Part shown: positions 2,400-20,595 of the stretch, in pieces | Layout of the letters: the number at the start of each line of letters is the position of its first letter | Numbering within the stretch: the first letter of the stretch is position 1 | Source of the DNA: an uncultured Clostridia bacterium | GTDB lineage: Bacteria > Bacillota > Clostridia > Oscillospirales > Acutalibacteraceae | NCBI GenBank assembly: GCA_944384825.1 | Contig: CALWUT010000007.1 | Coordinates: 1-44,697 of the forward strand | DNA length: 44,697 bases | Direction: 5' to 3' | The notes under the pieces: generated by a model | Told to the model about the DNA's origin: nothing | The model's input: only the letters and a program-made list of their open reading frames with translations | Databases searched by the model: none | Translations under genes and position numbers: made by a program

Positions 2400-2451
2400 T
2401 TTATTTTTCCTCCAAATTTTTTTAAGCTTCCGGATTCGTCCGCTTGATTAC

Positions 2452-2556
2452 ATATTACCTCTACTCGCCTCGACCAGCAAGTTAATGCTGTACTTTTAAA
2501 GGTAGAACAAATCCGCATTTTACCTAACCTTTGCGTCACTAGTACACAAACAAAGG
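2452..2556 (-). promoter_or_regulatory. repeated promoter module, copy C
   Basis: Minus strand TTGCTG (2475-2480), 17 bases, TAATAT (2452-2457). From 2452 to about 2552 only a few bases differ from copy A at 1362-1462. The conserved block runs about 75 bases upstream of the -35, more than a promoter needs, so it probably holds a regulator or phage-factor binding site. Confidence 0.7.
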
Positions 2557-2623
2557 TAAACTCCATTAGATTGATTTATCACCATATTTTTCCATATGGA
2601 GCTCAAGGTATCCCTACAAGTTA

Positions 2624-3229: not shown

Positions 3230-3244
3230 CTCCTTTTTTTATTT

Positions 3245-3598: not shown

Positions 3599-3716
3599 TT
3601 TTATCACCTCATTTTTATTACAGAAAAAGTCCTCGGATTTCTCCGAGAACTTTAAATTATATTCCACTAGTATAACTATATCACATCTAGCTACTCTCTT
3701 TCTCTCTCATTTACTA

Positions 3717-4136: not shown

Positions 4137-4352
4137 TTAAAATACCCTCCTTTGTCCAAATTTACAACCAGACCAAGTTATGTATTTAAGGACATTACCT
4201 TGAGTGTCTACATTTAAAAGAGACTTATAATATTCACTTTCGGGATTACCACACTCATACACACTTTGGTTATCGCATTTCATAGTCGGATCTTCTCTAA
4301 CAAAACGGCACCATTTGCATCTGATATTACCATTTTTATTCTTTATGGGCAT
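4137..4352 (-). CDS. small Cys-rich phage protein
   Basis: A 71-residue protein with CKWC, CDN, CGN and SGCKFG cysteines, suggesting one zinc site. The start at 4352 follows GGAAGGTG. A longer reading to 4394 lacks a site. It sits between the VRR-NUC and DUF1492 genes and its stop touches the next ATG. Function unknown. It may be a zinc-ribbon accessory of the replication/packaging switch. Confidence 0.55.
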   Translation of the reverse strand: MPIKNKNGNIRCKWCRFVREDPTMKCDNQSVYECGNPESEYYKSLLNVDTQGNVLKYITWSGCKFGQRRVF

Positions 4353-4457
4353 AAAAACACCTTCCAAATTACAAATTTTAAAATTTATCTGCACTTTGAA
4401 TTTTGTAATTTGTATTTTTGTAACTTTGCATTTTGAATTTTGTACTTTGAGGGTGTT

Positions 4458-4745
4458 TTATTCCGGCATCACCCCTTTCAAGATATCTTTTACTTCCTGC
4501 AAACTTGTAACTTTAAACGCCATACCACCTGATCCATTTATTTTTGTAATCATAAATTCCTGTAGCTTTGATAGCCTACCTTTTTCGGTTTTAACTTCAA
4601 ACGCCACAAATTTTCCTTTATAGCAACAAATGATGTCGGGAAGCCCTGATACACCATATATGCCACCATGCTCTTTGAATGCGAAGCATTCGGGTATTGA
4701 TTTCAAATATTTTAATATTTGATTTGTTATTGTTTTTTCTCTCAT
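4458..4745 (-). CDS. VRR-NUC domain nuclease
   Basis: A 95-residue stand-alone VRR-NUC (PD-(D/E)XK superfamily) protein. The order is an N-terminal helix, E-H-GGIYGVSGLPDIICCYKG (catalytic Asp), then FVAFEVKTEKGRLSKLQ (catalytic E-x-K). Phage members are structure-specific nucleases of the replication module and process branched DNA. The start at 4745 follows GGAG. A longer frame to 4871 only reads through the GGGTAAC repeats and encodes a duplicated MSNMGN, so it is not used here. Confidence 0.8.
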   Translation of the reverse strand: MREKTITNQILKYLKSIPECFAFKEHGGIYGVSGLPDIICCYKGKFVAFEVKTEKGRLSKLQEFMITKINGSGGMAFKVTSLQEVKDILKGVMPE

Positions 4746-4766
4746 ACTCTTATCTCCAATCCAACC

Positions 4767-4988
4767 GTTACCCATGTTACTCATCGTTACCCGAGTTTTT
4801 TGAAAATGGGTAACACCCTTAAACCCAATAACAAAGCCATTGTTTATATAAATGTTACCCATGTTACTCATAAAATAAATTTATTTGTTTATATAGGACT
4901 TTTTTAATTTACACACTAAAAATTTAAATCGTTTATATTACTCTAAATATACGAGTGTGTATGCGCAAAATCGGGGTTCATGGGTAAC
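4767..4988. repeat. GTTACCC/GGGTAAC iteron-like cluster
   Basis: The 258-base gap between the primase and nuclease genes carries GTTACCC at 4767, 4786 and 4854, GGGTAAC at 4808 and 4982, and GTTACTC at 4776 and 4863. A 16-base unit TTACCCATGTTACTCA is repeated exactly (4768 and 4855). TGTTTATATA also occurs twice. Inside a replication module this could be a replication origin or an operator array. The sequence does not decide which. Confidence 0.55.
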
Positions 4989-5003
4989 ACACCTTCAAAG
5001 TGG

Positions 5004-7892
5004 CTATTTTAAGGGATTTGTAGGAACGTCATTTTCTCCATTTGTTCCCCAAGATATCATTGTTTCAATGCAAAAGCATTTTTGCAGCACTCCATTTATT
5101 CTTTTGGGTACGTGCATTCGCGTGATTCCGTGCTTATCTTGGATGGTATTTATCAATTCTCGGTCTTTAAATCCGCGAGTAACTTTCGAGTAGTCAAACC
5201 CGTTTTCCTCAAGTGCTTGACGCAGAATGTTTGGAATAATATACACCGTATTTTCCTCGATTTTTCCGTAACATGGCGTACTATCAGGTACAAATCGGTT
5301 TTTATTGCTCGTTATCCAGCCTATTACAAAGTCCCAAGCTCTGTCGATGGTATCGGCTCTTTGTAATTCTTTACAATTTTCCATGATTTTAGTTCCAAGC
5401 TCTACAGCTTCGTCCCACGCTACTGTTTCATCAAGATTAAAGACCGATATACTCGAATAATAGTCACCAAGACACACTATTGCTACATTATCAAGATGCG
5501 TATTATCACATTCATCGCTGGAATGTTTAAGGATAGTATCTCGTAACTTTTCGAAGTCACGGTGTATCTTGTTTTTAACTTTCATTACGCTATTAATCAG
5601 GTACTCAATGTAAATTTTCCCTGCAAAACCATAATTGTTCTCGCTTGTCAGGTGAAACTGATGAGCCACATTGGGATTAGGAGTAGGCTTGCCGTAAAGT
5701 TCTAAAACTCGGCTTAAGACCCCATCGTTGCTTGATTCTTTGCTGATAGGTTGCTCACCGGACGTTATGATATTGTTTCTCCAGCTTAAAGTTTCCTGCA
5801 TACCACCGTCTTTGGAGCCTCTGAGCCGTCCAAAGCCATTACCAAGACTGTATATGATATTTTCAAGAGGCAGTCTCTTGTTGTTCAAAACCTGCAATTC
5901 ATCGATGGCAAACGGAAGCTGCTTCAAGATTCCGGCCATACGTTCAAGTCCCACGCTCGTAGCGTTAAAACTCCCCATAAGCTTTGTAGGATTCCCCCAG
6001 ATGCTTATTGCCATCTTAATTGCTGCGGTCTTTCCAGACCTAGAATCATGCCAGATATGGACGAAAAACACACGATGATTCAAGATTTTAAGAAGTGGCG
6101 CACTGAACGATGATGCTAAGATAAATCTTCCAAACGGACTCTCTCGGAGTAATTTTGCATTCTTTATCCACGTTTCTAAACTACCACATTCGCAGGTGCT
6201 GTCGATAACATTTGCTGCTTCTTTATACTCCGATTCAAAAACAATCTCGCTACTAAATTTATAGGGAAAAAACTCTTTTCCGACCCAGCCCATACGGGAG
6301 ATTGACTTCACAAACGGAATCTTACTATCATTGACACTTTCGTAATCATAGAGATATTTCACAATGTCAGAAGCATTGCCCGAAGATATAGGAAGTCCAC
6401 TATCAGCGTATTTAATTATCGATGTTCGATTAAACACATGAGACCGCGGTGCAATGACACATTTCCAGTGATCTCGATTCCAAAATGTAATCTCAACTTT
6501 CTGAGTTCCGTCATCTATATTTTCAAACTTTCGAGAGATAATCAGTGGACATGGACACACCTGCATCAGTTCGTCAGAAGCATTATTTTTTAAGATTTTA
6601 CAAACTCCGTGTTTCTCATCGACTTCCCAGCCTTGAGGCACTACTGCACCAAAAGTCTCTAGTTTATCAAGTTTTAGGAGACGAGATTTCTCAGATTTAT
6701 CGCCATTGTTGCGATGAGTCTCGTGTCTGACCGCTTTTTCAAAGTCACGAAGATTAATTTTACCTTTGAGTTTTACTTTAAGTTTTGCGTACTCAGACGG
6801 CAGATTCGATTTTGCCCAAGAACAAAGTTTTATATTTTCTTCAGACAGCACATTGTCAATGTCGACCTTTTCGCTTGAAATTAAATCCTTAAACCTATCT
6901 TCACGACTCGGCAGACCGTAAACAATAGGAGCTTTCACATGGCAGTTTTTGCCACAGTCAAAGTTAAGATTTTCTTTGATATACTCGCAAGTATGCGGTT
7001 TATTTTCCGTTATGGCCCTTTGTATTTTTCTCTCAGTTTCTTCAAAACTGTACTTCGGATAGCTCTTGCTAAACTGATGTACCGAATCGTTACCCCATTT
7101 AAGCGGAGCAAGATTGGTAACCATAGCATGCCACAAAGGCTCCGGCAAATCTGCGGCATTCTGTATGCAATATTTGATAAATTCACAGTTTTGGGCTACT
7201 TTTTCCACATCTTGTGCATTTTTAACAATAGGTGCAATTATATCGTTACAATGTACATATTGACTAAATTTATCTAAACTGTACCTTTTAAGATTACTTT
7301 CTATTACTTCGCACATAGCTCCATCTTTCAGCTTATGGTTAATAGTTCCCGGTACCCTTAAAATACGTGCCAAATCATAAACATTATCGATTCTCCAACC
7401 ATGCTTTTTTGCTTCAAGGTTTATGTATTTTCCAAACCCCTTAAATATCGAAACAATGTAGCTCCTGTCTTGGGTGTTTTTAATATTAAATGGTTCTTTT
7501 AAAAGCCAGTATCCATGTATTCCGTTACCTGAATTTACAATTATACTCGGCTTAATATCCAGATTGTTAAGAAACGATGCGGCTTCGGACGTTGTCTCAG
7601 GAAGTGATTTTTCAGCATGAGCATCGCCTTTAACGTCAATGTCGGCATACAAAGCCCCAATACACGAGATGTCTTTTTCGCTTCCTCGAAGACCATTTTT
7701 AAGTACCTTATTTCTAAGTCCCACGCCAAAGAATACATTTGTTTTTTGGCCTATATTTTCAGCAGTTTTTGCAACTTTCTTGATGTCGTCTACTTTGAAC
7801 CACTTAGTATTTCTGCTAGGGAGAGATGTGAGTGTTATAAATCCAGTATCGCAGCCTTTATAAATTTCGCTTAAAAATTCAGGGGTATTCAT
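5004..7892 (-). CDS. phage primase-helicase (AEP-like primase + DUF927 ATPase)
   Basis: A 962-residue replication protein. The N-terminal third is an archaeo-eukaryotic-type primase: ALYADIDVKG gives the metal-binding D84 and D86, and SGNGIHGYW gives H126. RVPGTINHK follows. The C-terminal half is a DUF927 superfamily III-type helicase with an unusual Walker A (HDSRSGKTAA, K621) and an acidic IDELQ Walker B about 60 residues on. It would prime and unwind the phage genome. Its ATG overlaps the stop of the 54-aa gene by four bases, so the pair is coupled. It lies between the polymerase and the repeat cluster at 4767. Confidence 0.85.
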   Translation of the reverse strand: MNTPEFLSEIYKGCDTGFITLTSLPSRNTKWFKVDDIKKVAKTAENIGQKTNVFFGVGLRNKVLKNGLRGSEKDISCIGALYADIDVKGDAHAEKSLPETTSEAASFLNNLDIKPSIIVNSGNGIHGYWLLKEPFNIKNTQDRSYIVSIFKGFGKYINLEAKKHGWRIDNVYDLARILRVPGTINHKLKDGAMCEVIESNLKRYSLDKFSQYVHCNDIIAPIVKNAQDVEKVAQNCEFIKYCIQNAADLPEPLWHAMVTNLAPLKWGNDSVHQFSKSYPKYSFEETERKIQRAITENKPHTCEYIKENLNFDCGKNCHVKAPIVYGLPSREDRFKDLISSEKVDIDNVLSEENIKLCSWAKSNLPSEYAKLKVKLKGKINLRDFEKAVRHETHRNNGDKSEKSRLLKLDKLETFGAVVPQGWEVDEKHGVCKILKNNASDELMQVCPCPLIISRKFENIDDGTQKVEITFWNRDHWKCVIAPRSHVFNRTSIIKYADSGLPISSGNASDIVKYLYDYESVNDSKIPFVKSISRMGWVGKEFFPYKFSSEIVFESEYKEAANVIDSTCECGSLETWIKNAKLLRESPFGRFILASSFSAPLLKILNHRVFFVHIWHDSRSGKTAAIKMAISIWGNPTKLMGSFNATSVGLERMAGILKQLPFAIDELQVLNNKRLPLENIIYSLGNGFGRLRGSKDGGMQETLSWRNNIITSGEQPISKESSNDGVLSRVLELYGKPTPNPNVAHQFHLTSENNYGFAGKIYIEYLINSVMKVKNKIHRDFEKLRDTILKHSSDECDNTHLDNVAIVCLGDYYSSISVFNLDETVAWDEAVELGTKIMENCKELQRADTIDRAWDFVIGWITSNKNRFVPDSTPCYGKIEENTVYIIPNILRQALEENGFDYSKVTRGFKDRELINTIQDKHGITRMHVPKRINGVLQKCFCIETMISWGTNGENDVPTNPLK

Positions 7893-8053
7893 GATCTCAC
7901 CACCTTACGTTTTTTAGATTTACTTTTCTTGCTGTAGGATAACGAAAAAATATGCATAGCTTTTTTACGTCTTTCTTCTGCATATACATTTTTAATTGCT
8001 TCATATGCTGTTAAATCGTAGTATCCTTCTGCATTTTTTAGTCCTAAATACAT
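7889..8053 (-). CDS. small basic phage protein (54 aa)
   Basis: MYLGLKNAEGYYDLTAYEAI followed by a very basic tail ending SKKRKVVRS. The start at 8053 follows GGAGGG four to eight bases upstream. The longer frame to 8137 lies inside the polymerase gene and is not used. It begins five bases after the polymerase stop and overlaps the primase start by four bases. This size and position is common in Firmicutes prophages. The basic tail suggests nucleic-acid contact. Function unknown. Confidence 0.65.
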   Translation of the reverse strand: MYLGLKNAEGYYDLTAYEAIKNVYAEERRKKAMHIFSLSYSKKSKSKKRKVVRS

Positions 8054-8057
8054 AATT

Positions 8058-9980
8058 TTATCCCTCCATTTCTTTAAGTGAACCGAATCTTGTTCCCACA
8101 GCAGCCTCAGCCACCAGCGGTATATCAAAGTCCTCAAATGGCTGTGCCTCCATACACTTTTTTACAAACTCTACTGCTTCATTTAGCTTTTCTTCCGGCA
8201 GTTCAAACATCAATTCATCGTGTATTTGTAGCAAAGGTCTAAGCCATGGTCTTTCAGGTAGTCCACGAAGTATCCTGGCTATTGCTAACTTTAAGATATC
8301 AGCTGCGGTTCCTTGTATCGGAGTATTAAGAGCTTGTCTTTCAGAAAAACTCTTTTTATTCCAGTTCGATGACAGAATATTCGGAAGATATCTTCTCCTG
8401 CCGAGATACGTCTCTGTATATTCATTAAATTTTGCCGTGACTTTTATCTTGCGTTGCCAAGTTTCAAGCTGTGGATATCCTGCCTTAAGGTTTTTTATAA
8501 TCTCTTCGCATTCTTCAAGAGTTTTATTAAGTCCGGCTTTAAACTTAAGGCTTCTGAGAAGTCCCTTTGCAAAAAGGCCAAAGAATACTCCAAAATTACA
8601 CGCTTTTGCAATTGTTCTGCGTTCCTTGTAGTGAGGTGCGTTTTTATCGACAGCCTCTTCAAACGGTATCTTATAGATTACAGATGTTGTCTTTGCATGA
8701 ATATCGCCGCCACTTTTATATGTTTCCATCATGGCTTTATCTCTGCAGTAAAACGCCCCAACACGAAGTTCAATCTGCGAGAAATCGAGCGACATCAGAA
8801 TTTTACCTTTAGGTGAAATAAAAAAGTTTCTGACTCCAATAGGATCGTTATCCTTACGGTGGCAATTTTGAAGATTTGGATTTCTACTTGCAAATCTTCC
8901 TGTCTCAGTTCCAAGAGGGAAGAGATCTGGATGTATACGTCCTGTCGCGGAGTTAAGATGCTTAAAATAACTGTCTATATACGTCGACTTAATTTTGCCC
9001 CACTTGCGATAATCCTTGATTATATCAAACAATGGTACATATTCAGGCTCATGTTGTTTGCAATATGAAGATAAAAGGATGAATGCTTCATCATCTGCAG
9101 CTTCTTTGTTTTTTCCCGTTGTCTTTAAAACGGGGAGGCCTAACCTTCCATAGAGAAAGTTCTTAAATTCCTGAGTCGTAGCGTTAGAGCCAATATTGAT
9201 ATTACCTGTAAGGAGTGATAGGTCCTCTTTTAATTGTCTGAGCATTGCGGTAGCTTGGTCTTGCTTTTGACTTAGCAAGTTGCGATCAACGAGCATTCCG
9301 TTATGTTTCATTAATCCCACATACACCGCTACAGGTGACTCTATATTCTCGACCAAAAATCTGTGTTTAGGTAAGTTTTTATCAAACCAATCGTTGAACA
9401 GGTGATACAGTCTCAGAGCATAGTCGCTGTCTGCACAGGCATATCTCACAGTTTCATAATTATCTGGGTTAAGCTCATCAAAAAATGCTCCTTCTGTCAC
9501 GCTTTCAAATGTAGGTAGCTCCACCTTCAAAAGTTCAGGAACCAATTTTTTAAGACCGCTGTCAGACAAATTTCTAAATTCTGTATTTGTCTTAAGAGTA
9601 AGCTGAGCTGCAGCCATCGTATCGTACACATTGCATCTCATAATAACGCCCAAAGCGTAGAAAAAGCTACTTTCAAACGCCGCGTTATGAATTACCACAG
9701 TTTTATTTTCATTTAGCAAAATCTCCTCTTTAATGAACGAGAAAACTTCGTTAAAATCAGCATTATCGTAATTTCTATGACGGAGGGGAACATATATCCC
9801 CGTTCCGTATTCAACTGATAGACTAATATCTGTGATTTCTGATTTATTCGAGTCAAGCGATGCCTTTTCATCACGTCTGTATTCATGTTTAGGAGAGGTT
9901 TCTATATCAATCGCCAAGAGAGCATGACTTCCGATATAGTTTTTAATTTCCTCTGCGGTCTTTACTAATTTATACTTCAT
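8058..9980 (-). CDS. phage DNA polymerase, family A (3'-5' exonuclease + polymerase)
   Basis: A 640-residue phage replicative polymerase. Exonuclease motifs are DIETS (D25, E27), NAAFESSFF and YACADSDYALRLY. Polymerase motif A is DFSQIELRV (D399), motif B is RRTIAKACNFGVFFG, and motif C is QIHDELMFE (D588). There is no N-terminal 5' nuclease domain, as usual for phage members. The start at 9980 follows AGGAGG and overlaps the upstream gene by 11 bases. All catalytic residues I looked for are present, so it should be active. Confidence 0.93.
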   Translation of the reverse strand: MKYKLVKTAEEIKNYIGSHALLAIDIETSPKHEYRRDEKASLDSNKSEITDISLSVEYGTGIYVPLRHRNYDNADFNEVFSFIKEEILLNENKTVVIHNAAFESSFFYALGVIMRCNVYDTMAAAQLTLKTNTEFRNLSDSGLKKLVPELLKVELPTFESVTEGAFFDELNPDNYETVRYACADSDYALRLYHLFNDWFDKNLPKHRFLVENIESPVAVYVGLMKHNGMLVDRNLLSQKQDQATAMLRQLKEDLSLLTGNINIGSNATTQEFKNFLYGRLGLPVLKTTGKNKEAADDEAFILLSSYCKQHEPEYVPLFDIIKDYRKWGKIKSTYIDSYFKHLNSATGRIHPDLFPLGTETGRFASRNPNLQNCHRKDNDPIGVRNFFISPKGKILMSLDFSQIELRVGAFYCRDKAMMETYKSGGDIHAKTTSVIYKIPFEEAVDKNAPHYKERRTIAKACNFGVFFGLFAKGLLRSLKFKAGLNKTLEECEEIIKNLKAGYPQLETWQRKIKVTAKFNEYTETYLGRRRYLPNILSSNWNKKSFSERQALNTPIQGTAADILKLAIARILRGLPERPWLRPLLQIHDELMFELPEEKLNEAVEFVKKCMEAQPFEDFDIPLVAEAAVGTRFGSLKEMEG

Positions 9981-10674
9981 TGTCCACATCCTCCTGTGGT
10001 TGAGATTCACCTAAACTTGCGTGATTTTTGATTTGTGTAATAAGTTCTTGTAGGTTATCTTTTTCTGTTTGACTTAAGTCTCGAATTACAGAAAAATGAA
10101 CCATAGAAAAGGCTATCCCCGTTTTATTTACTGCTTTTTTAAGAGATAGCTTTGTTACAACGCTATCTGATCTTTTACCCACACCAAGTAATCTTCTGAT
10201 ATATTTTGAAAATTCCTGAATTGAACTCGCCGGAAGTACTAAAACTGCAGGTAATATTTCATTTTCACGAAGAAGGTATAGTCTGTGTTTGTTCTTACAC
10301 GCTTTGGAGCCATTTTCACCGCTTCCAAATGCATTTAATTTGCACAATTTGCACTTTCCTCCGGGGATACCATTACCATTAATCCCATCAAAACTGCAAC
10401 AATCCGGTGGATTATTGCTTCCGTTATATTTACTCTTATAGTAACTAAACAGGGGATGATGGTGTAAAATTGCTGCAGAAAATTCCTTAACAGTTATGGG
10501 ATTATCGGCATCCTCAAGATTAGGGAATTCAAAGTTCATACCTCCTCCTGCAGGAATTTTTATACGATCAAACCCACTGTCAAGTCCTGCAAGTTCATTT
10601 TTTACATCAATTCCTAAGTTTAAATTAATTGAATATCCTTCGTTTGTTATCATTAATTTCGTATTTTCTTTCAT
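9970..10674 (-). CDS. phage replication-module Cys-rich protein
   Basis: A 234-residue conserved-looking protein. Residues about 85-130 hold the cluster PPDCCSFDGINGNG, GGKCKLCKLNAFGSG and KACKNKH, almost certainly a zinc or Fe-S site. The flanks are beta-rich, with an ILPAVLVLPASSI strand and an SKYIRRLLGV helix. It lies directly before the polymerase in the slot where many phages carry a single-strand DNA binding protein. That role is a guess from position only. The ATG is preceded by TTGGAGG. Confidence 0.55.
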   Translation of the reverse strand: MKENTKLMITNEGYSINLNLGIDVKNELAGLDSGFDRIKIPAGGGMNFEFPNLEDADNPITVKEFSAAILHHHPLFSYYKSKYNGSNNPPDCCSFDGINGNGIPGGKCKLCKLNAFGSGENGSKACKNKHRLYLLRENEILPAVLVLPASSIQEFSKYIRRLLGVGKRSDSVVTKLSLKKAVNKTGIAFSMVHFSVIRDLSQTEKDNLQELITQIKNHASLGESQPQEDVDNEV

Positions 10675-10691
10675 TTCAATTCCTCCAAAAT

Positions 10692-11195
10692 TTATTTTGA
10701 TGCCTTTCTTATACCAACTGTGTTTTTTTCATATACATTAACAAGTCCTTCAAGCCAAGAAGGGAGAAGATTATCATTTTCAGAAATCTGTTCTTTCACA
10801 AAAGAGGATAGAGAATTTGCATTTATAGTTTCGTGAATTAAATCTTCATAGCCTTTCTCACGAAGTTTCGAGTATAGTTCGTCTTTTAGCCCAGCTACGG
10901 CTGAGGCTTTGGTACTTGTCGTCAAACAGAAGGTAGTACCACCACGAGTAAAGTTCTGTGTTTCTTTGAGTATCATAAGCTCTGAAAGTTCGCTATCCAC
11001 TTCAAAAATCATATCGTTAATACCCCGAAGCTCCAGTTCTTTTTGTTTCTTCTGATCCTTTAAATCCTTAAGTCTATCCGCTAATTCAAACAGTGGCGAG
11101 TCGCCACCCCCATTTCGCACACAATAATTATCTGAAATTTCATTCAAAATGCCTGCGTTTTTATCCTCTTCTTTTTCTAATACTGTATTTTCCAT
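10692..11195 (-). CDS. coiled-coil phage protein, Gp157/Gam-like layout
   Basis: A 167-residue protein. A long coiled coil (about residues 35-75, rich in Lys/Glu/Leu) is followed by a small globular half with KASAVAGLKDEL and HETINANSLSSFVKE. This layout recalls Gp157-type and Gam-like phage proteins that bind DNA ends or modulate host nucleases, but I see no diagnostic signature. It starts three bases after the helicase stop and precedes the Cys-rich protein. Probably part of the recombination/replication operon. Confidence 0.55.
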   Translation of the reverse strand: MENTVLEKEEDKNAGILNEISDNYCVRNGGGDSPLFELADRLKDLKDQKKQKELELRGINDMIFEVDSELSELMILKETQNFTRGGTTFCLTTSTKASAVAGLKDELYSKLREKGYEDLIHETINANSLSSFVKEQISENDNLLPSWLEGLVNVYEKNTVGIRKASK

Positions 11196-11198
11196 AAT

Positions 11199-12629
11199 TT
11201 ATTTCCTTTCTGATTTAAATGGATTGAGTCCTTGCCTGTAATCATCAATAAGTGATGAGGCTAAATCGTATTTTTTATTAAGTGATTTCATTACTTTTTC
11301 ATCTATCGTATCTTTGGCTATCAGATAAATATATGTGCACGGATCGCACTGACCGGCACGATGAATTCTAGCTTTTGTCTGCTCGAAGTTGCTCATCGAA
11401 TAATCAAGTGAATAAAACACCATTGTACTGGCTGCTGTGAGTGTTATACCAAGCCCTGCTGTCGCAATCTGACCCACAAATACAAGTACATCCGATTCAT
11501 TTTGAAACTGCTCGATCTGCTCGCTGCGGTTTTTTATATTTCCGGTTATAAGTGAAAATTTCAGTTTTTTCTTTGACAGCAAATCTGTTATTGCTTCAAT
11601 CTCAGGAATAAATCGGGCTATTACCACAAGTTTTTTACTGCTTGACGTTACTTCATCTACAATGTCCTCAAGAGCACCTAGCTTTGCGGTACTTATTTGA
11701 TGTATCTTTTTGCCTTCGTCATCGCCTAAAAATCCTCCGGTCAACTGAGAAAGCCTTAGAATTTTAGTAAGAATATTTGTCGCAGTTACTTCGCCTCTTG
11801 AAAGCTCTGCGAAGCTGTCCTTCACAAGGTGTTTGTAAATATTCATAGCATTTGGTTCTAATTCGACAGAACGAACTATATCGGTCGTTTTCGGTAAATC
11901 TAAGCACTCAGCTTTTGTTGCTCTGAACGCTATACTATGGATTTTTTTCTTTAACTCAGGTTCCACCCCTTTTTTTAAAACCGGAGTATGATTTCCGTAC
12001 CCGACCATGTCGAAGTAACGATTTCTAAAGGCATAAAAACTTTTACCAAATATTCTTGGATCTAAAAATTTATACTGTGAAAAGGCATCAATCGCTTTAT
12101 TTGTTATCAATGTTCCTGTAAGGATTAACCTGTATTCTGCCTTTTCTCCAAGCCTATGAAGCGATTTTGATGCTGCAATATTATGAGTCTTTATTTTGTG
12201 AGACTCATCAACAAGGATCATGTCGGGTATCCAATTTTTAATTTGCGGTTCGATCCTCCAAACAGACTCATAATTTACCACCGCTACTTGCAGGGAAGCA
12301 CCGTTCATTGAATTAAGCGTCATGGCTTTGCTATCAGACGTACCCTTTAAAACTTTTAAGTCATAGTCAAAGTCGGCAAACTTTGAAAATTCTTCTTTCC
12401 ACACTCCGCAGATTGATAATGGACACACTATGAGCAGTTTTCTGATTTTTGATTCTTTATACAGTGCTCCTGCTGTGGCTACAGATATAAGACTTTTCCC
12501 ACAACCCATCTCAATTAAAAGTGCTGCTCCTCCCGGATTCTCAAACTTATTCATTACAAATTTAAACGCTTCTTCCTGATGCTGATATGGTATTGCTTTT
12601 ATCGGCATCTTTAAATTTTCAAATTCCAA
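11199..12629 (-). CDS. SNF2-family (DEXH) phage helicase/translocase
   Basis: A 476-residue superfamily 2 ATPase. Motif I is MGCGKS (K45), motif Ia lies near LLIVCPLSI, motif II is DESHK (D141), and motif III is LTGTLI. The C-terminal RecA lobe has GLGITLTAAS and motif VI QTKARIHRAGQ. Phage SNF2 proteins remodel DNA or help replication and transcription. The start is TTG at 12629 with GGAGG seven bases upstream. The first ATG (codon 8) lacks a site. The 5' end follows the stop of the 60-aa gene within a few bases. Confidence 0.88.
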   Translation of the reverse strand: MEFENLKMPIKAIPYQHQEEAFKFVMNKFENPGGAALLIEMGCGKSLISVATAGALYKESKIRKLLIVCPLSICGVWKEEFSKFADFDYDLKVLKGTSDSKAMTLNSMNGASLQVAVVNYESVWRIEPQIKNWIPDMILVDESHKIKTHNIAASKSLHRLGEKAEYRLILTGTLITNKAIDAFSQYKFLDPRIFGKSFYAFRNRYFDMVGYGNHTPVLKKGVEPELKKKIHSIAFRATKAECLDLPKTTDIVRSVELEPNAMNIYKHLVKDSFAELSRGEVTATNILTKILRLSQLTGGFLGDDEGKKIHQISTAKLGALEDIVDEVTSSSKKLVVIARFIPEIEAITDLLSKKKLKFSLITGNIKNRSEQIEQFQNESDVLVFVGQIATAGLGITLTAASTMVFYSLDYSMSNFEQTKARIHRAGQCDPCTYIYLIAKDTIDEKVMKSLNKKYDLASSLIDDYRQGLNPFKSERK

Positions 12630-12631
12630 AA

Positions 12632-12814
12632 TTAAACCTCCTTGATTTCAATTTTTTGAACGCTGTCCTGTGGCACTATGACCATTAATTTTTGAGCATT
12701 TCCGAACCACCTGTTGCGGATCCTTTCGAGGAGCGGTAGCTTTTTAAATTTTGCTATGCTTATTGGCTTTTCTCCTGACCTTCTGACCGTAATTTTCATT
12801 TCATGTTTATACAT
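12632..12814 (-). CDS. small basic phage protein (60 aa)
   Basis: A 60-residue protein, MYKHEMKITVRR then KPISIAKFKKLPLLERIRNR, ending in a beta strand KLMVIVPQDSVQKIEIKEV. The start at 12814 follows AGAGGTGA. It is the second gene of the leftward early operon and ends three bases before the helicase start. No family recognised. The strongly basic N-terminus suggests DNA or RNA contact. Confidence 0.6.
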   Translation of the reverse strand: MYKHEMKITVRRSGEKPISIAKFKKLPLLERIRNRWFGNAQKLMVIVPQDSVQKIEIKEV

Positions 12815-12958
12815 ACTTTTCACCTCTGTTCCGAGACTTTATTTTTGTTTCCTTAAAAACGCCTCTATATATAAGCCACGAGAAAGGCCTTAGGTGTCGC
12901 AAAAATTTTATAATCTATGTTTTGCATAAAATTTTATAACAAACATTTTGTTAATTAT

Positions 12959-13360
12959 CTATTTAAGCAAAATATTTCTTAGCTTTTTTCTTATTCTCTT
13001 CATCCTCTGCTTTACCGAATTTTCACTAACATCCATAAATTGAGAACATTCAAATTGAGATAAATTATTTTTATTTAAATAAAGTTTATGTATTAACTCT
13101 TTCTCTTGAGGCTTCAGCTTTGCTATCGCATCATACAGTTTGTCCTTATCAAAATTTCTACAAACATCTCCTAAAATATCAACCGTTATGTCAGAATTTC
13201 TCTCGTCTTTATCAAACAAGTCCAGACTTTCGTGTCTTCGGGTTTCCTTACGGTCGTTATTTTTAAGATTTCTATCCAGTTCCAGCATAATTTCCTCAAA
13301 CTCACCATATACTTCTATAGATACATCTTCGCCAGTCACAAATTTATATTCTATTTTCAT
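12959..13360 (-). CDS. phage sigma-70-region-4-like regulator
   Basis: A 133-residue protein. The last 60 residues (KLKPQEKELIHKLYLNKNNL, then SQFECSQFMDVSENSVKQRM and KRIRKKL) form the region-4 helix-turn-helix of sigma factors. The N-terminus is a short acidic beta domain. There is no region 2, so it is more likely an activator that contacts a promoter than a full sigma factor. The start at 13360 is chosen after an AAGGACGAGG site. Frames further upstream run through the attenuator. It is the first gene of the leftward operon and probably regulates it. Confidence 0.7.
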   Translation of the reverse strand: MKIEYKFVTGEDVSIEVYGEFEEIMLELDRNLKNNDRKETRRHESLDLFDKDERNSDITVDILGDVCRNFDKDKLYDAIAKLKPQEKELIHKLYLNKNNLSQFECSQFMDVSENSVKQRMKRIRKKLRNILLK

Positions 13361-13431
13361 TGTCCTCGTCCTTCCGAATTTTTGATTTATGTTCAAAAAA
13401 CGAAGGACTCTTGGTGGACCTCTCACAAAAC

Positions 13432-13488
13432 AAAAAAAGACGCTGATAAGCAACTTTGAATCACTCCGATGCTTAAAATGACGTCTTT
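13432..13488 (-). terminator. attenuator-like hairpin ahead of the early operon
   Basis: On the minus strand AGACG (13482-13486) pairs with CGTCT (13438-13442), with an inner AAGC/GCTT stem (13471-13474 with 13448-13451) and a T7 run directly after. It lies 72 bases before the start of the sigma-like gene and downstream of the palindrome cluster at 13529. It has the form of an intrinsic terminator in the leader, so read-through could control the early genes. Confidence 0.5.
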
Positions 13489-13528
13489 AATTTTCGTGAA
13501 TTATGCTTAAATTATCTTTAGGTCAGCG

Positions 13529-13577
13529 ACCCAAATTCGTTGGGTTGCCGACCCAAATTCTTTGGGTTCAGCACCCA
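13529..13577. repeat. tandem ACCCAAA-N3-TTTGGGT palindromes
   Basis: Two and a half units of about 21-22 bases. GACCCAAATTCGTTGGGTT (13529) and GACCCAAATTCTTTGGGTT (13550) are followed by a half site CACCCAAT (about 13572). Each full unit is itself a dyad. The cluster lies between the leftward phage operon and the rightward peptide gene, the expected place for operators of either one. It also fits a small palindromic mobile repeat. Confidence 0.55.
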
Positions 13578-13620
13578 ATCCTTGTAGAGTACAAATGACA
13601 TACAAAAAATGTATATATTT

Positions 13621-13658
13621 CACAAAGATTAAGCGAAAGAAATATTCGCCTTTTTGTG
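13621..13658. promoter_or_regulatory. long dyad upstream of the peptide gene
   Basis: Nested inverted repeat: outer arms CACAAA (13621-13626) and TTTGTG (13653-13658), inner arms GCGAA (13633-13637) and TTCGC (13645-13649). It ends about 60 bases before the peptide ATG. It could bind a dimeric regulator or fold in the peptide mRNA leader. There is no T tract, so it is not a terminator. A convincing -35/-10 pair was not found between it and the gene. Confidence 0.45.
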
Positions 13659-13721
13659 ATAAATTTTTACTGGAAATAAATGTTAATATCGAAAAGAACA
13701 ATAACATAAGGAGGAAAAATC

Positions 13722-13862
13722 ATGCTTAAAAAAGTATTTGTTACGTTGGCAGCTGTTGCTTTAGTTTTTGGTGCAGTTTCGAACACAAGTATTCCTAAAA
13801 ATTTAGCAGATGCTTGTTATTGTGTCTGTTGCGATCACAACGGCGATGGATGGGATAACTAG
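13722..13862 (+). CDS. secreted cysteine-rich 46-aa peptide
   Basis: A small gene encoding MLKKVFVTLAAVALVFGAVS, then NTSIPKNLADACYCVCCDHN and GDGWDN. The first 20 residues are a textbook signal peptide (KK, then a hydrophobic run with small residues). The mature end has four Cys packed as CYCVCC and a DHNGDGWD stretch that resembles a Ca-binding loop. AAGGAGG lies eight bases before the ATG and a perfect intrinsic terminator follows, so this is a deliberately isolated transcription unit. The gene just downstream encodes a membrane-bound DNA-binding sensor, which suggests the peptide is its ligand or target. A bacteriocin or metal-binding peptide are alternatives. Confidence 0.7.
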   Translation: MLKKVFVTLAAVALVFGAVSNTSIPKNLADACYCVCCDHNGDGWDN

Positions 13863-13892
13863 CACTAAAAAATTGTTGGTTAATATAAAAAA

Positions 13893-13933
13893 AGATACAT
13901 AAATCTAAATTTGTCGATTTATGTATCTTTTTG
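13893..13933 (+). terminator. intrinsic terminator of the peptide gene
   Basis: GATACATAAAT (13894-13904) and ATTTATGTATC (13917-13927) form a perfect 11-bp stem with a 12-base loop, followed by TTTTTG. It separates the peptide from the membrane-sensor gene. The loop contains TTGTCGA, one base off the Spo0A box TGTCGAA. Confidence 0.8.
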
Positions 13934-13979
13934 TAATCTTTTACCTTATAATATAAATAATTAACTTATGTAAAATAGG

Positions 13980-15159
13980 GTGAAATTTTTGATACTTCTT
14001 ACATTAATCAGTATAATTCGGTATTTAATAAGTGGTTCTTTCGCTTTTTCTATATTTAACAATTCAAAAAAATATCCTTTTAAAGTTACTGGTATTCAGT
14101 CAATTTTATATACTATTTCCCTTACCGTATTTAAAACTTTTGTAATTGATAATCCAATAATTACGTTGATTTCAGCTATGGCGATTTTCGGGTGCCTGTT
14201 TTTAAAGAATAAGATGGAGACACCCAAAACTATGGTTACATACTCACTTTTTATAGCATGTATGCTTGAGTATACCCACTTTATTATTTTTGAGGGTGTT
14301 TCAAACGTATGGAAATACTTTGAATTCCCTGAGGCTAAGTATGCTAATTATATAAGTTTGTTGCTTTTTAGAGTAACAGTTCTTTTACTGTACGCTTTAA
14401 TTATTATGTTAATTTATAAATTTGACCGAATAAATATAAAATCAGTATTTAAACTCTCAAATTATAAAATTTTCCGTATATTTTTTTATAATTGCCCTAG
14501 GGGTAATTGTCTATTTAAAGCATCACATTAAATATACTATTTCAAATAAATTCCACGATATTTTATCTATTATATTTGTATCCTTTATAGTTTTAACCCT
14601 TATATTTACTTTTTCCTCAAAAAATTTTTTAGAAATAATTGAAACTTTCCACAAAAGGAAAATAAATCCGGCGATAGAAGAAGCCAAACTGCAAAAGGAT
14701 AAGGGGTATACCGGACTGATTTTTGAATTAAAAGAATTAAATTCACAGATGAAGTATTTTCAACATGAGCTATACATAATCGGAATCGACACAGAAGATA
14801 AAAAAGCTAAACAACTGGTACATTGTAATGTTCTGATTAATCAAGAAGAAAATCCGGAAAAAGTAAATATGAGATCTGGCATTTATTTTTATACTGGGAA
14901 AATCTTAGAAGTACAGCCTAAAAGCGTGGAAATGAATATAAGTAACTTATTAAAGAATCATTGGAGTTCATGTGCTCCAGAAATACTTAAGAAGATAAAA
15001 CAAAATTATCATGGACCAATCTCTGAAGAAAATGGTGCTCCTACTCCAAGAGAATTTATGCTATATTTATCTAAAAAATATAGACAAGATAGTTCTGTGA
15101 ATGAAAGCACAGATAAAATTAATCTTTCATTATTCAAAAAATGTTTTTTAGATATATAA
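13980..15159 (+). pseudogene. polytopic membrane protein with C-terminal Spo0A-C-like DNA-binding domain, split by a frameshift
   Basis: Two readable halves belong together. Frame 1 (13980-14531) encodes five membrane segments and enters a sixth. At the T7 run 14481-14487 the correct frame moves by one base. The continuing frame encodes the rest of segment six (FFIIALGVIVYL), a seventh (LSIIFVSFIVLTLIFTF), a charged linker and a roughly 115-residue domain to 15159. That domain aligns by eye with the Spo0A C-terminal HTH: IGI near its start, KSVEMNISNLLKNHW in the recognition-helix position, and PTPREFMLYLSKKYRQ at the end. Joined, it is about 390 residues, shaped like AgrC/ComD sensors but with a DNA-binding domain replacing the kinase. 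The start may really be TTG 13989 (AGGGTGA upstream) rather than GTG 13980. Mutation, phase variation or an assembly indel are all possible. Confidence 0.6.
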
Positions 15160-15168
15160 AAATAACAT

Positions 15169-15210
15169 CCCTATTTTGACTCATAATGTTGGTCAGAATA
15201 GGGTATTCGT
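15169..15210. terminator. bidirectional hairpin terminator
   Basis: CCCTATTTTGAC (15169-15180) pairs with GTCAGAATAGGG (15192-15203), 12 positions with one wobble pair. It stands between two convergent genes, the membrane sensor and the DUF5655 gene. T-rich tracts lie on the right (TATATTTTT) and A-rich ones on the left, so it can serve both strands. Confidence 0.7.
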
Positions 15211-15231
15211 ATATTTTTAGTGGTAGCTATA

Positions 15232-16125
15232 TTAATTTTCATTATATGCTCGGTCAATATATGGTTTAGCTTTATTCCAAGTTTCTTTATTTGTGATAGT
15301 AATCTCTACATTGCCAGTTCCAAAATGTCCAATGTTCGTCGTGTTTCTTGAAAAGCCTTCCTCAAACTGTACTGTATTTACATCTAAACTTAACCGTAAA
15401 ATAATTTTGGAACGTTGTATCTCAATACAAATTACATTTTTAATCTTTTTAAATGCAATATAATGTTTAAGATGATTTTCAGTGATATCATCACCAAGAC
15501 TCAGTATGTAATCTTTAATAGTTGCATAAAGTGTTTTTAGTTCATTTGATGTATTTTGAAGATTTTTATTAAAATTATAGCTTATATTTTTATGCTTAGG
15601 CTTAGAACCTGAATCAGGAATTGGGGCGACTACATTATCATGAACATACTCAAACATAAGAAGATTATTACCAAACTTTTTATAGCGTATTAGACTTATA
15701 TTTTTATCCATTTGATTAATCGCAGACTTATCATACCTCGTAAAATCTCCAGCAATACACACTACTCTCGGCATAGACCAATCAATATCATTTGATACAT
15801 CAAGACCTAGTTTATTTATCACAAGGACTTTGAAACTATCTTTATGGTCGAGCAACCAGTTGAGATAAAAAAGTCCTTGATTTATTACATTGTCTTTTAC
15901 AGATCGTTTGTATTCAAAAATAACAGGGCAATTATTCTCGTCAATTCCAATGCTGTCCATACGTCCGCCATCTGTTGTTCTATACTCAGATGCCAAAAAT
16001 GTTACACCAAAAAATGTATCCATATTTTTTTCTATTATGTTTTGCAGATCCTTTTCTAAAGCTACGTTTTCGCCTTTATACTCCTTTGCACTATTTCCAA
16101 TCTCAAAAAGTTTTATATCTGCCAT
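15232..16125 (-). CDS. DUF5655-type protein with PD-(D/E)XK nuclease-like N-terminus
   Basis: A 297-residue protein. The N-terminal domain has the order E47 (ASEYRT), D57 (GGRMDSIG), E71-x-K73 (VIFEYKRS), the core of a restriction-like nuclease fold related to NucS/DUF91. The C-terminal 100 residues (LKTLYATIKDYILSLGDD, then HYIAFKK, with NIGHFGTGNVEI near the end) match DUF5655. It may act on damaged or foreign DNA, and the family often occurs in accessory islands. The start at 16125 is chosen because GAAAGGA lies nine bases upstream. The frame is open further up to 16341 only because it runs into a degraded HTH gene. Confidence 0.7.
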   Translation of the reverse strand: MADIKLFEIGNSAKEYKGENVALEKDLQNIIEKNMDTFFGVTFLASEYRTTDGGRMDSIGIDENNCPVIFEYKRSVKDNVINQGLFYLNWLLDHKDSFKVLVINKLGLDVSNDIDWSMPRVVCIAGDFTRYDKSAINQMDKNISLIRYKKFGNNLLMFEYVHDNVVAPIPDSGSKPKHKNISYNFNKNLQNTSNELKTLYATIKDYILSLGDDITENHLKHYIAFKKIKNVICIEIQRSKIILRLSLDVNTVQFEEGFSRNTTNIGHFGTGNVEITITNKETWNKAKPYIDRAYNEN

Positions 16126-16371
16126 TTTTATTTTTCCTTTCAAATCCATCTTAATATTAAACCTTAGAAATAATTGCTTTATATAGCTATTTTTAATTGA
16201 TAAAAAATATTTAGTTAGATATTCTGCTTTAACATCTAGTATTTTACATATGCACATTAGTTCAAAATCTGTTACAATTCTTTTGTTATTCTCAATTCTG
16301 CTTATAGCCTGTTGGTCAATATTTACACCCAAAATTTGCATTTTAGCGGCTAATATTTGCTGAAAATAGCC
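16126..16371 (-). pseudogene. truncated XRE-type helix-turn-helix remnant
   Basis: Reading in the frame of the DUF5655 gene, the segment encodes QQILAAKMQILGVNIDQQAI and then SRIENNKRIVTDFELMCICK, the middle and end of a Cro/CI-type HTH. The N-terminal helix is missing and a TAG stands just upstream (16372-16374). It is either a dead repressor or, if ATG 16341 is used, an N-terminal DNA-binding extension of the nuclease gene. No ribosome site precedes 16341. Confidence 0.5.
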
Positions 16372-16462
16372 CTAAAAAATGCATATATCATATTTTTATG
16401 CACATGGAATTTTATGCTTATCATTTTTAATGTCTAAGCATTACGTTTATATCTAAATTAAT

Positions 16463-16648
16463 TTATTTTTTGTCCAACATTATCTCAGCATTTTTAAGTG
16501 CAAAATCTAATGCATGATTTATTAATTCGTTTCTTGTTCTTCCGCTTTGCTTAGCTAAATTATCAAAACCCTCTTGTATTCTTTTTTCTATTCTAATTGA
16601 TATTTGTACACTTTCATTATCTCTTGGGGTAATTATAAACTTACTCAA
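16463..16648 (-). CDS. ribbon-helix-helix (CopG/Arc-like) DNA-binding protein
   Basis: A 61-residue protein. A beta strand (ESVQISIRIEKRI) is followed by two helices with GRTRNELINHALDFAL, the ribbon-helix-helix signature of Arc/CopG repressors and antitoxins. The start is TTG 16648 with GAGGTGAT eight bases upstream. No toxin gene is adjacent. The next downstream gene is the HTH remnant/DUF5655 pair, which it may regulate. Confidence 0.75.
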   Translation of the reverse strand: MSKFIITPRDNESVQISIRIEKRIQEGFDNLAKQSGRTRNELINHALDFALKNAEIMLDKK

Positions 16649-16751
16649 TTTTCATCACCTCAATAATATTTTAAACTTGCATTAGTATTTTAAAAATGGT
16701 AATATTGTGATATAAAAGTGATATAAAACGAACACAAAAATACAGTGTAGG

Positions 16752-16997
16752 TTATTCTTCATCTTCAAAAAATGTTTCATTCATTTCTGGGAAATCTAAA
16801 AATTCAGATACTGTCATATGAAAACCAATCGATATTTTATGTAAGGTTCTCAATGTTGGATTTTTAGTTATACATTTTACAATTCCGTCAACTGTAGATT
16901 GCCGTAATCCAGACAATGTTGAAAGGCCATTAATAGTCAATCCTCTTTTTTGACAAAGTTGTTTTATACGCTTTGAAATAGCTTGTACATACGTCAT
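16752..16997 (-). CDS. XRE-family transcriptional regulator
   Basis: An 81-residue Cro/CI-type repressor. The HTH lies at about residues 6-62 (KRIKQLCQKRGLTINGLSTL, then SGLRQSTVDGIV), with a short acidic tail FFEDEE. The ATG follows GGAGGAAGT. It is transcribed divergently from the SLOG operon across a 106-base gap with two dyads, so it probably represses that operon and itself. It could also be the lysogeny repressor of the neighbouring prophage. Confidence 0.8.
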   Translation of the reverse strand: MTYVQAISKRIKQLCQKRGLTINGLSTLSGLRQSTVDGIVKCITKNPTLRTLHKISIGFHMTVSEFLDFPEMNETFFEDEE

Positions 16998-17103: not shown

Positions 17104-17601
17104 TTGAATTCAAAAACTTGTTGTTTTACTGGACATAGAATACTAAACCAAGCTTTGAAAGTTTTTACAAAACAAATAATTACCGATGAAGCAATAAAAC
17201 TTATAGATCAAGGTGTGATGTATTTTATTGCCGGGGGTGCATTAGGATTTGATACTTTAGCCGCACAAACTGTGTTAGATTTGAAAAAAGATTATGCACA
17301 AATAAAACTGATTCTTGCGATTCCATGCAAAAACCAATCTGATAAATGGAGTTACGAGAATAAGGTAGAATATGAAAAAATTAAAAATGCATCAGACAAA
17401 GTTATATATTTATCAGAAAAATACGAAAGTAGTTGTATGCTAAAACGGAATAGATATATGGTCGATAAATCTGATTTTGTTATAGCTGCATGGGATGGTA
17501 GAAAGAGAGGTGGTACATATTACACCTTAAATTATGCTAAAAAACTAGGCAAAAAAATTATATTTATAGATATCGGGAGCAAAAACGATGACATGGATTG
17601 A
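17104..17601 (+). CDS. SLOG-family (DUF1273/YpsA-like) nucleotide-binding protein
   Basis: A 165-residue Rossmannoid protein. FTGHR (8-12), AGGALGFDTLAA (43-54), KRNRYMVDKSDFVIAAWDG (114-132) and GGT (136-138) are the hallmarks of the DUF1273/YpsA branch of SLOG proteins, which bind nucleotide-derived ligands. Some SLOG proteins act as sensors in phage-defence systems. Others, like YpsA, affect cell division. The start is TTG 17104 after AGGAGG. It overlaps the next ORF by 14 bases and lies divergent from an XRE repressor, suggesting a regulated accessory operon. Confidence 0.8.
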   Translation: MNSKTCCFTGHRILNQALKVFTKQIITDEAIKLIDQGVMYFIAGGALGFDTLAAQTVLDLKKDYAQIKLILAIPCKNQSDKWSYENKVEYEKIKNASDKVIYLSEKYESSCMLKRNRYMVDKSDFVIAAWDGRKRGGTYYTLNYAKKLGKKIIFIDIGSKNDDMD

Positions 17602-18432: not shown

Positions 18433-20595
18433 CTATGGGAACAATTTATTATCAAACCATTTTATTATTTTTTCATTTAAAAGAGTTTTTCTCTCATTTG
18501 AAATATCATTTTCAACTGCGTATTTTAAAGCATTCCTATCACCAATTAAAACTACAATTTTCTTTGCTCTTGTAATACCAGTATAAATTAAGTTTCTTTG
18601 AAGCATTATCCTGCTTTGGAAATGAACTGGAATAACTACAATTGGAAACTCGGCTCCTTGTGATTTGTGTATTGTTATTGCAAAAGATAAAACCAATTCA
18701 TCTAAATCTTGATATTCATAATCTATAAAATTATCGTCGAAATTGACTGTTATTGAATTGTTTTCTAAGTCTACATCGCTGATTATTCCAATGTCTCCAT
18801 TAAAAATATTTTTTTCGTAGTTATTTTTTATCTGCATCACTTTATCGCCCAGTTTGTATTTATTAGCTCCCCTCTTTATAAATAATTTACTGTTGTTCAG
18901 TACGCTTTGAAGTTCTTCATTTAAGTTTTCTGTGCCAAGCAAACCTCGCTTCATTGGCGATAAAATTTGTATATCGGTAATTTTATCGACTTTATAAAAG
19001 TTAGGTAGTCTTTGAGAGCATAATCCCTTTATAGTTTTTACTATGTTTTCTGGATTTTTTTCTTCTATAAAAAAGAAGTCAGAATCATTTTCACTGGATA
19101 AATCCGGCATTTCTCCACTGTTTATCTTGTGAGAATTAGTTATAATTTTGCTAGACTCTGCTTGACGATAAATTTTATTAAGTCTTATCACAGGCAAAAC
19201 ATTTGAACTTATTATATCATTTAAAACGTTTCCTGCATTTACAGAAGGTAATTGGTCGGCATCGCCAATCATTATTACAATCATTTCATTAGGAATAGCT
19301 TTCAATAAATTATACATTAAAATTGTGTCTATCATAGAAGATTCATCAATTATAATTACATCGCCACTTAACTTATTTTCTTCATTTTTACTGAACTTCC
19401 CTTTATGATCTGCTTCTAGAAGTCTATGAATTGTCTTTGATTCTAATTTACACGCCTGTGTCATGCGCTTGGCGGCTCTACCTGTAGGAGCTGCTAAAAT
19501 TATTTTTTTATTCATTAATTTGAAAATATCAATTATTGCCTTTGTAATGGTGGTTTTTCCTACGCCAGGTTCTCCTGTTATCACGCTAAATTTAGATAAA
19601 ATCGCCGCTTCTATAGCAGATATTTGATTTTTATCATAAATTATTTTATTTTTATTTTGTACCGATTTTATTGCACTTTCTAAATCAAACTTTTTGTCAA
19701 TCTCATTTTTAAAAGTTACAATCTCATAAATTCTTTTAGCTATGCCCACTTCTGAATGATAAAAGGGAGGGAGATATATAATCTGATTGTTTTCTTCGCA
19801 AATTAACTCTTTTTGTGAATTTAAATAGTCAAAAGTCATAACTATAATGTGCGAAGGAATATCCAAAAGTTGTGAACCTTTTTGAGTTAAATCATCAAGG
19901 GAAGCGTAGCAGTTTCCGTCGTTGGCAAATTCACTTAAAATATAGAAAATCCCAGCTCTGCACCTATTATATGATTCTTTGGGTAATCCCATTTTTATTG
20001 CTATCATATCCGCAGTCTTAAATCCTATACCATAAATATCGTCTACTATCCCATACGGATTCTCTTTAAGTTTTTGTATGCTTTCCTCGCCATAAACTTT
20101 ATAAATTTTATGTGCTACGGACGTTGAAACTCCGCAATCACTCAAGAATATCATTAAATCTTTTATATTTTTGTGCTTCTGCCACGAATTTACAATTGCT
20201 TGAATTCGCCTTTCTCCAATTTTGGGAATTTCAAGTAGTTTCGTAGGTTCATTTTCTATTATATTTATCGTATTTTCTCTAAATCTTTCTACAATCTGTT
20301 TTGCAAATTTAGGACCGATTCCTTATATTAAGCCACTGCCTAGATATTTTTCAATACCATAAATACTTGCCGGAAGACTTTCTTTATATTCTTTTACGCT
20401 AAATTGCCTCCCAAACTTTTTATTTATTATAAAATTGCCTTTAGCTTCAATTATTGTTCCAATATTTATTGATATAAATTTTCCAGTTAAAGCAATAAGC
20501 TCTGAAAAGGCCTTAGCTCTGATTTTTATAACACTGTAGCCGCTTTCTTCATCGTGGTATGTTATTCTTTCGACTACACCAGTTATAGTTTCCAT
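18433..20595 (-). pseudogene. recD2: RecD2-type helicase gene interrupted by one in-frame TAA
   Basis: Reading through gives a 720-residue RecD2 (superfamily 1B, 5'-3' helicase). In order: an N-terminal OB region (VVERITYHDEESGYSVIKIR), an HhH region (IGPKFAKQIVERF, KIGERRIQAIVNSW), Walker A GEPGVGKTT (K347), IIDESSM, and a C-terminal SH3/UvrD-like end with FAITIHKSQGAEFP and NLIYTGITRAKK. A TAA at 20323-20325 replaces what is usually a Lys codon (GSGLI-stop-GIGPK). Both sides are in the same frame and otherwise intact. The downstream part has an internal ATG at 20154 that would give a 573-residue helicase without the OB and HhH regions. This is a pseudogene, a very recent nonsense mutation, or a base error. 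Confidence 0.8.

Follow-up and report, generated by a model that had tools for sequence, protein, structure and literature searches.

Peptide signalling in the Firmicutes is described in two layouts, one pairing a membrane sensor with a response regulator and the other relying on an intracellular RRNPP receptor of an imported peptide (PMC10075063, in the portions consulted), and the phage phiCDHM1 carries agrD, agrB and agrC (PMC3901668, likewise in part). A membrane protein with a DNA-binding end is described in neither of these partial texts, and the titles and opening abstract lines of the open-licence PMC matches listed held no report of a membrane Spo0A fusion or of a one-component membrane receptor for a peptide. 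Here we analyse a gene pair in a 44,697-nucleotide stretch of DNA from an uncultured Clostridia bacterium (the window; contig C7 of a 1.18-Mb genome, G000, in 23 contigs), in which a small pre-peptide gene is followed by a gene for a membrane protein with a Spo0A-type DNA-binding domain at its end (hereafter the receptor). With a probability of about 0.6, we interpret the pair as a prophage-associated, mobile peptide-signalling cassette, in which the membrane receptor would itself be the transcription factor, located where phages keep their lysogeny switch. An initial annotation of the window had proposed a secreted Cys-rich peptide sensed by such a membrane-anchored regulator; its central proposal stands, with conservation adding to its support, and neither of the two outcomes that it had named as refuting was encountered, the function being a predicted one.

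Conservation of the peptide-receptor pair

Both the pre-peptide of 46 amino acids (aa), with signal sequence and Cys-rich end, and the terminator of its own that the initial annotation had assigned to it were recovered. From the list of open reading frames (ORFs) and comparison with other loci, the pre-peptide ORF was placed at 13722-13862 on the forward strand (MLKKVFVTLAAVALVFG...CYCVCCDHNGDGWDN); its product comprises a KK start, a hydrophobic stretch, ADA and the Cys-rich end CYCVCCDHNGDGWDN, which terminates in DHNGDGWDN. ORFs of 46-47 aa with KK and a hydrophobic stretch, judged by eye to be a Sec-type signal, adjoin the receptors, the peptide of genome G146 being known from its end only. 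The five full peptides first aligned have in common M, K-K, F-G, H, G, G, W and N, and H-x4-W-x-N forms the end of 7/7 peptides when those of contig C78 and G146 are included, in which the glycines are not all retained.

A peptide gene with this ending was found directly upstream of the receptor in 6/6 testable loci, drawn from three genomes, in accordance with the co-occurrence that had been anticipated for related genomes. Besides the window, these comprise contig C3 of the same genome, with an intact 367-aa receptor and two peptide genes in tandem upstream; contigs C61 and C76 of genome G004 (records CALWJB010000061.1 and CALWJB010000076.1, uncultured Clostridia bacterium), with intact receptors of 385 and 392 aa and one peptide each; contig C78 of G004, which ends after the first 12 receptor residues; and G146, from another genus, with an intact 389-aa receptor on a contig starting inside the peptide end (...CHSVDIWDN*). 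Left out of this count were a decayed receptor remnant without a peptide in genome G001, and a locus in genome G176 cut by the start of its contig inside the receptor, at 96% DNA identity to the window. Intact receptors elsewhere, namely the paralogue in the same genome and the homologues in two others, span 367-392 aa and are about 50% identical, and the pair is still kept. Joint conservation of the two genes at other loci marks their linkage as more than chance. At the level of sequence, comparison establishes the pair, its gene order, the terminator, a dyad array in most loci and the combination of membrane part with Spo0A_C domain.

The intrinsic terminator between the two genes (13889-13932, forward strand) has a 17-bp stem with an RNA fold z of -6.0, and is kept in 6/6 aligned loci, in which 97.1% of the cells are paired and both sides have changed at two of the pairs. 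It is followed by a putative receptor promoter, whose -10 element TATAAT (13947-13952, forward strand) is found in 6/6 aligned loci. Such a separate promoter, together with the terminator, would allow the peptide to be produced in excess of the receptor.

Signal sequence, tight linkage, a Cys-rich end in some members and the tandem peptide genes at C3 would also suit an antimicrobial or membrane-active small peptide, with the membrane protein acting in immunity and autoregulation. We consider this improbable, given that the membrane protein carries a DNA-binding domain at its end and that the ORF lists, read by eye, revealed no gene for export, modification or immunity directly beside the pair; ABC-transporter-like genes lie kilobases off, at C3 (L012 2423-4115) and G176 (L027 4944-6692).

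Comparison of the peptide genes of the window and C78 (L044 178-318) revealed a signal part nearly identical in DNA and a mature end differing in bulk, a difference that reaches silent sites (6 of 8.8 vs 2 of 22.7). Diversifying selection on the mature peptide was rejected because its silent sites differ too, and an exchange of the mature peptide segment is suggested instead.

The pair has a very narrow distribution, with receptor matches in 4/398 family genomes. Receptor matches were also obtained in four of 97 relatives, including the G001 remnant and a receiver-Spo0A_C protein of genome G059 that has only the C-domain in common; in the own genome plus two weak matches with internal stops among 391 class genomes; in the own genome plus one weak fragment among 394 order genomes; and at two loci, both from the G004 genome, in the named genome collection. 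The peptide search of the 398 family genomes returned six strong matches, 6/6 adjoining this receptor, while a further nine were weak (E 0.0016-0.0098), fell within frames of 135-929 aa and were discarded as matches to signal sequences alone. A DNA search with the locus gave no match among plasmid and phage records, and scans of IMG/VR found neither the receptor nor the hairpin; within the own genome, the hairpin pattern has a single occurrence, a differing C3 variant falling outside it.

Architecture of the receptor

A model of the receptor contains seven long helices across residues 2-207, with hydrophobic windows (overlapping) throughout. After the last membrane helix, the stretch NPAIEEAKLQK (residues 225-235 of the receptor on L013) is invariant in four intact receptors, and also present in the window and G176 pieces. 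The Spo0A-like end, previously aligned by eye, was confirmed by the Pfam family Spo0A_C (PF08769), which, with the two pieces of the window receptor searched separately, scores above its curated cut-off of 25 bits in the second piece (26.0 bits; 27.6 bits in the genome search) and in four intact homologues (28.8, 36.6, 31.3 and 28.6 bits). In structure prediction, two Spo0A C-domain structures, 1fc3 and 1lq1, were the top structural matches of the receptor model, which is of low confidence. A PDB sequence search with the receptor C-part gave no match, and one with the N-part only two rows (interferon gamma, E about 0.09-0.1), dismissed as chance. TIGR02875, which models Spo0A as receiver plus C-domain (equivalog cut-off 200 bits), was scanned against three receptors, one of which scored 13 bits and the other two not at all.

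At the DNA-contact positions of the Spo0A recognition helix, which we take to be Arg, Glu and Arg, the Glu is retained in all rows of the alignment and both Arg are replaced in the receptors. The host genome has a separate, intact Spo0A (153.8 bits). These two observations, the Spo0A-like character of the domain and the gain that a phage would draw from keeping its host out of sporulation would suit an anti-sporulation device, in which the membrane-held Spo0A_C domain competes with or titrates the host Spo0A, at its sites or as a protein, with the peptide tuning it and with no operator of its own. Prophage quorum-sensing genes beside sporulation regulators are described in the portions of PMC10075063 consulted. 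We nevertheless regard such a device as unlikely: the altered contact residues equally fit an altered site, and a local role in regulation is suggested by the dyad array and the two promoters that accompany the pair.

Two further Spo0A_C-type proteins were observed. The own genome encodes, in addition to Spo0A and the receptors, a lone 150-aa Spo0A_C protein (L002 1465-1917, reverse strand; 49.7 bits), with a RuvC-like gene close by as judged by eye. The second, encoded in another genome of this order (L016 6433-7215), is a regulator combining a receiver with a Spo0A_C-like part; it retains the second recognition-helix Arg and lies beside a Spo0A-like gene (by eye).

The sensor part of the receptor had no Pfam match; in the window pieces and four homologues, neither tetratricopeptide repeats (TPR) nor, up to E 1, the GHKL ATPase domain (PF14501) was matched. 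In profile comparisons (hhalign), the full N-part matched AgrC-type sensors at 86.3% probability and the transmembrane part alone at 52.7%, unstable on subsets, against 0.3-0.7 for controls and up to 28 for circular shifts; earlier runs had yielded 0.2 with 1 row, 0.1 with 2 rows and 55.3 with 24 rows. The end-to-end resemblance to AgrC-type sensors is suggestive, and bears on the Agr/ComD-like membrane layout noted previously.

Our results correct the initial annotation in that the seven-segment membrane protein, although present and matched by Spo0A_C, is not a single ORF in the window but spread over two frames. The 5' piece (13980-14531, forward strand) encodes transmembrane helices (TM) 1 to 5 and the start of TM6; it was read from GTG at 13980 to a stop at 14531, with its frame lost before 14531, and homologues suggest TTG at 13989 as the start. 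The 3' piece (14440-15159, forward strand), in another frame, supplies TM6-TM7, the NPAIEEAKLQK stretch, the Spo0A_C domain (roughly residues 111-212 in that frame) and a variable tail, such that the gene is broken by a frame change within 14440-14531. The window copy is therefore probably inactive, either dead or newly broken, unless the frame change is an assembly error. We assign a somewhat less than even chance to the window locus having no function at present, as a mere pseudogene of a prophage in decay, a reading compatible with a signalling role for the intact copies. The receptor in two frames, a RecD2-like gene nearby that is split too, and the decayed G001 relative argue for decay. 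Against it stand the possible assembly error and the intact C3 copy, which could still serve the cell, as well as the 3' half of the receptor, where 11 silent and 13 replacement changes separate the window from G176 in 203 codons, with replacement divergence (dN, 0.027) still below silent divergence (dS, 0.095). This ratio indicates that the 3' half was constrained until lately, or still is so in G176. Even with the window copy probably dead or newly broken, intact copies in its own genome and in relatives carry the predicted cassette.

Control region

Between the peptide gene and a divergent sigma-like gene, we identified a candidate operator consisting of three dyads, TTGGGT-N5-ACCCAA, with a 22-bp period (13518-13578). 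These start at 13518 (one mismatch), 13540 and 13562, and no further site with two or fewer mismatches occurs elsewhere in the window. Self-matching at a shift of 22 bp was pronounced in the window (25/30) and C61 (24/30; 0 of 300 shuffles each), and weaker at C76 (19/30) and C3 (21/30), where 3 and 2 of 300 shuffles scored as well at that shift, and 46 and 22 of 300 when any shift of 15-30 was allowed; at C78, the fifth of five loci tested, the period was not significant. The sigma-like gene was considered as owner of the array, which we doubt because two IMG/VR relatives of that gene, with no peptide noticed beside them, lack the array (16/30 and 13/30 at shift 22; n=2, no shuffles).

The putative peptide promoter has an extended -10, TGTTAATAT (13681-13689, forward strand), aligned elsewhere as TGGTAATAT and similar, beside a poor -35 (all by eye), features that fit those of an activated promoter. 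Near it lies a weak 0A-box-like element, ATTTATCAC (13656-13664, reverse strand), aligned as an AATTTGTCR-like element in C61, C76 and C78, not C3. Elements resembling TTTGTCRAA in 7-8 of 9 letters occupy the aligned place of the peptide promoter in 4/5 loci, and a 0A-box-like element recurs in the terminator loop as TTTGTCGAT in 4/6; they reach significance in no single locus (shuffles 0.11-1.0) and offer a lead only. Ahead of the sigma-like gene, a terminator-like leader hairpin (13423-13500, reverse strand; RNA fold -21 kcal/mol) has a z of -3.3 in the window and -1.2 at C61, and its sequence GGAGTGAT is kept in the window, C61 and C76 (by eye). Rfam had no match to it or elsewhere in window positions 12800-15300. 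The hairpin is a possible attenuator.

Prophage setting

The phage context was missing from the initial annotation: the first 13.4 kb of the window correspond to a prophage early and packaging region, headed by a phage sigma-like regulator divergent to the peptide gene. This small sigma70 region-4 protein (12959-13360, reverse strand; Pfam Sigma70_r4 32.8 bits, phrog_11138 73.3 bits) is encoded by the first gene of the early operon. Among the pair loci it is found only at the window, C61 and C76, in the same place. A search with it returned two IMG/VR loci, no peptide being noticed there; on IMG/VR contig L049, the sigma-like relative likewise heads a small gene and a helicase (by eye). Beyond it, the early and packaging genes (220-12823, reverse strand) include a terminase small subunit, HNH, a regulator, an endonuclease, primase/helicase, DNA polymerase and a helicase. 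Besides the sigma-like gene, 10/10 genes scanned in this region had a PHROG match, three to families of unknown function, the scanned genes being drawn from outside 840-3245.

Directly after the receptor, a repressor-like region (15232-16997, reverse strand) encodes an XRE-DUF5655 protein, a ribbon-helix-helix protein and an XRE protein. The first of these (15232-16341, reverse strand) joins an XRE-like start to a DUF5655 nuclease-like part, with 427 bits to the PADLOC candidate defence family PDC-S18. G176 and C76 have three XRE-type genes after the receptor instead; in these two loci and in the window, the pair is therefore flanked on one side by repressor-like genes, with the early operon on its other side in the window. 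Next to the repressor-like genes is a YpsA/SLOG-family protein (17104-17601, forward strand; Pfam 92.3 bits, 97% DNA identity in G176). Further along, a RecD2-type helicase lies in two pieces (18433-20154 and 20323-20595, reverse strand; PHROG exonuclease V), of which an intact 712-aa relative occurs at C3 (L012 11506-13644), near the intact peptide-receptor pair. No integrase was noticed, no search having been aimed at integrases, and the prophage in the window looks incomplete or decaying. Two tRNA genes were also observed: the G001 receptor remnant adjoins a tRNA-Gly gene (L015 7082-7156), and at C61 a tRNA-Met gene (L013 10412-10488) follows the sigma-like gene. tRNA genes are usual insertion sites of phages.

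Phage genes or remnants accompany the pair elsewhere too. At C61, pair and sigma-like gene lie between a tail-fibre-like gene with a BppU_N match and host genes; at C78, a fragment of the window's helicase (53% identity over 47 residues) lies beside the peptide; and some 8 kb from the C3 pair is a terminase-like fragment, identical to the window at 82.7% of DNA positions. A PHROG scan of the C3 and C78 fragments gave nothing, both being assigned by DNA or protein identity to the window alone. All loci may derive from one prophage lineage, and peptide and regulator could be separate cargo genes that merely travel together, the regulator sensing something else. We find this hard to credit, given that the C3 pair persists with only its distant terminase-like fragment, that host genes follow the receptor at G146 (one side seen), that terminator and spacing are shared, and that the pair is kept although the receptors are only about 50% identical.

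Proposed mechanism

Taken together, the signalling interpretation would operate as follows. Directed by the signal sequence that it carries, the pre-peptide would leave the cell through the Sec pathway and be cut down to its C-terminal part, about 15 residues with the H-x4-W-x-N end, which the adjacent seven-helix membrane protein would detect on the outside. Upon sensing, the cytoplasmic Spo0A_C domain, reached via the strictly conserved juxtamembrane segment, would alter its DNA binding. Its target may be the stretch that separates the peptide gene from the divergent sigma-like gene, with the 22-bp dyad array and the promoter, which would place both the cognate peptide and the early operon of the phage under control of the receptor. 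Of this scheme, we infer that the peptide is exported, trimmed and sensed and that the receptor binds DNA, as well as the targets and the sign of regulation.

If this interpretation is correct, the pair would constitute a third receptor layout and a two-gene sensor requiring neither phosphorelay nor peptide import. Given the prophage setting, it would be a candidate means by which phages other than those of the arbitrium family communicate with one another, which the Spo0A-type domain would tie to host sporulation. An unusually simple form of cell-to-cell signalling is suggested in a small-genomed host, with DNA as the direct target of the receptor itself.

Comparison with known systems

With Spo0A, the receptor shares a helical DNA-binding domain at the C-terminus, as indicated by the Pfam scores and, at low confidence, the structural matches, but it has seven membrane helices in place of the receiver domain and partly changed contact residues. 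It resembles the AgrC/ComD-type receptor histidine kinases (GHKL) in placing a multi-helix membrane sensor, with suggestive profile similarity, beside a peptide gene; unlike these, it has no kinase domain, and its peptide carries a Sec-type signal sequence. Neither AgrB nor a peptidase was matched by Pfam among ten neighbour ORFs scanned, the other neighbours being inspected by eye only. In common with RRNPP systems, including the phage arbitrium pair AimR-AimP, adjacent genes on prophages encode an exported pro-peptide and a receptor-regulator (PMC10075063, as far as consulted); RRNPP receptors, however, are cytosolic and read an imported peptide, whereas the receptor described here is a membrane protein. 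The agr genes of the Clostridioides phage phiCDHM1 likewise represent a peptide signalling locus on a clostridial phage, with AgrD, AgrB and the kinase AgrC according to the portions of PMC3901668 consulted, while here one protein would replace both kinase and regulator.

A more far-reaching reading, which we rate as less likely than not, is a third architecture of Firmicutes peptide signalling, in which an AgrC-like sensor and a DNA-binding domain of Spo0A type are united in one membrane protein, and which prophages might carry at the lysogeny/early-gene boundary to read lysogen density, with a domain of the sporulation regulator taken over as output. Judged from the genes compared, the pair constitutes a new layout within a known kind of signalling system.
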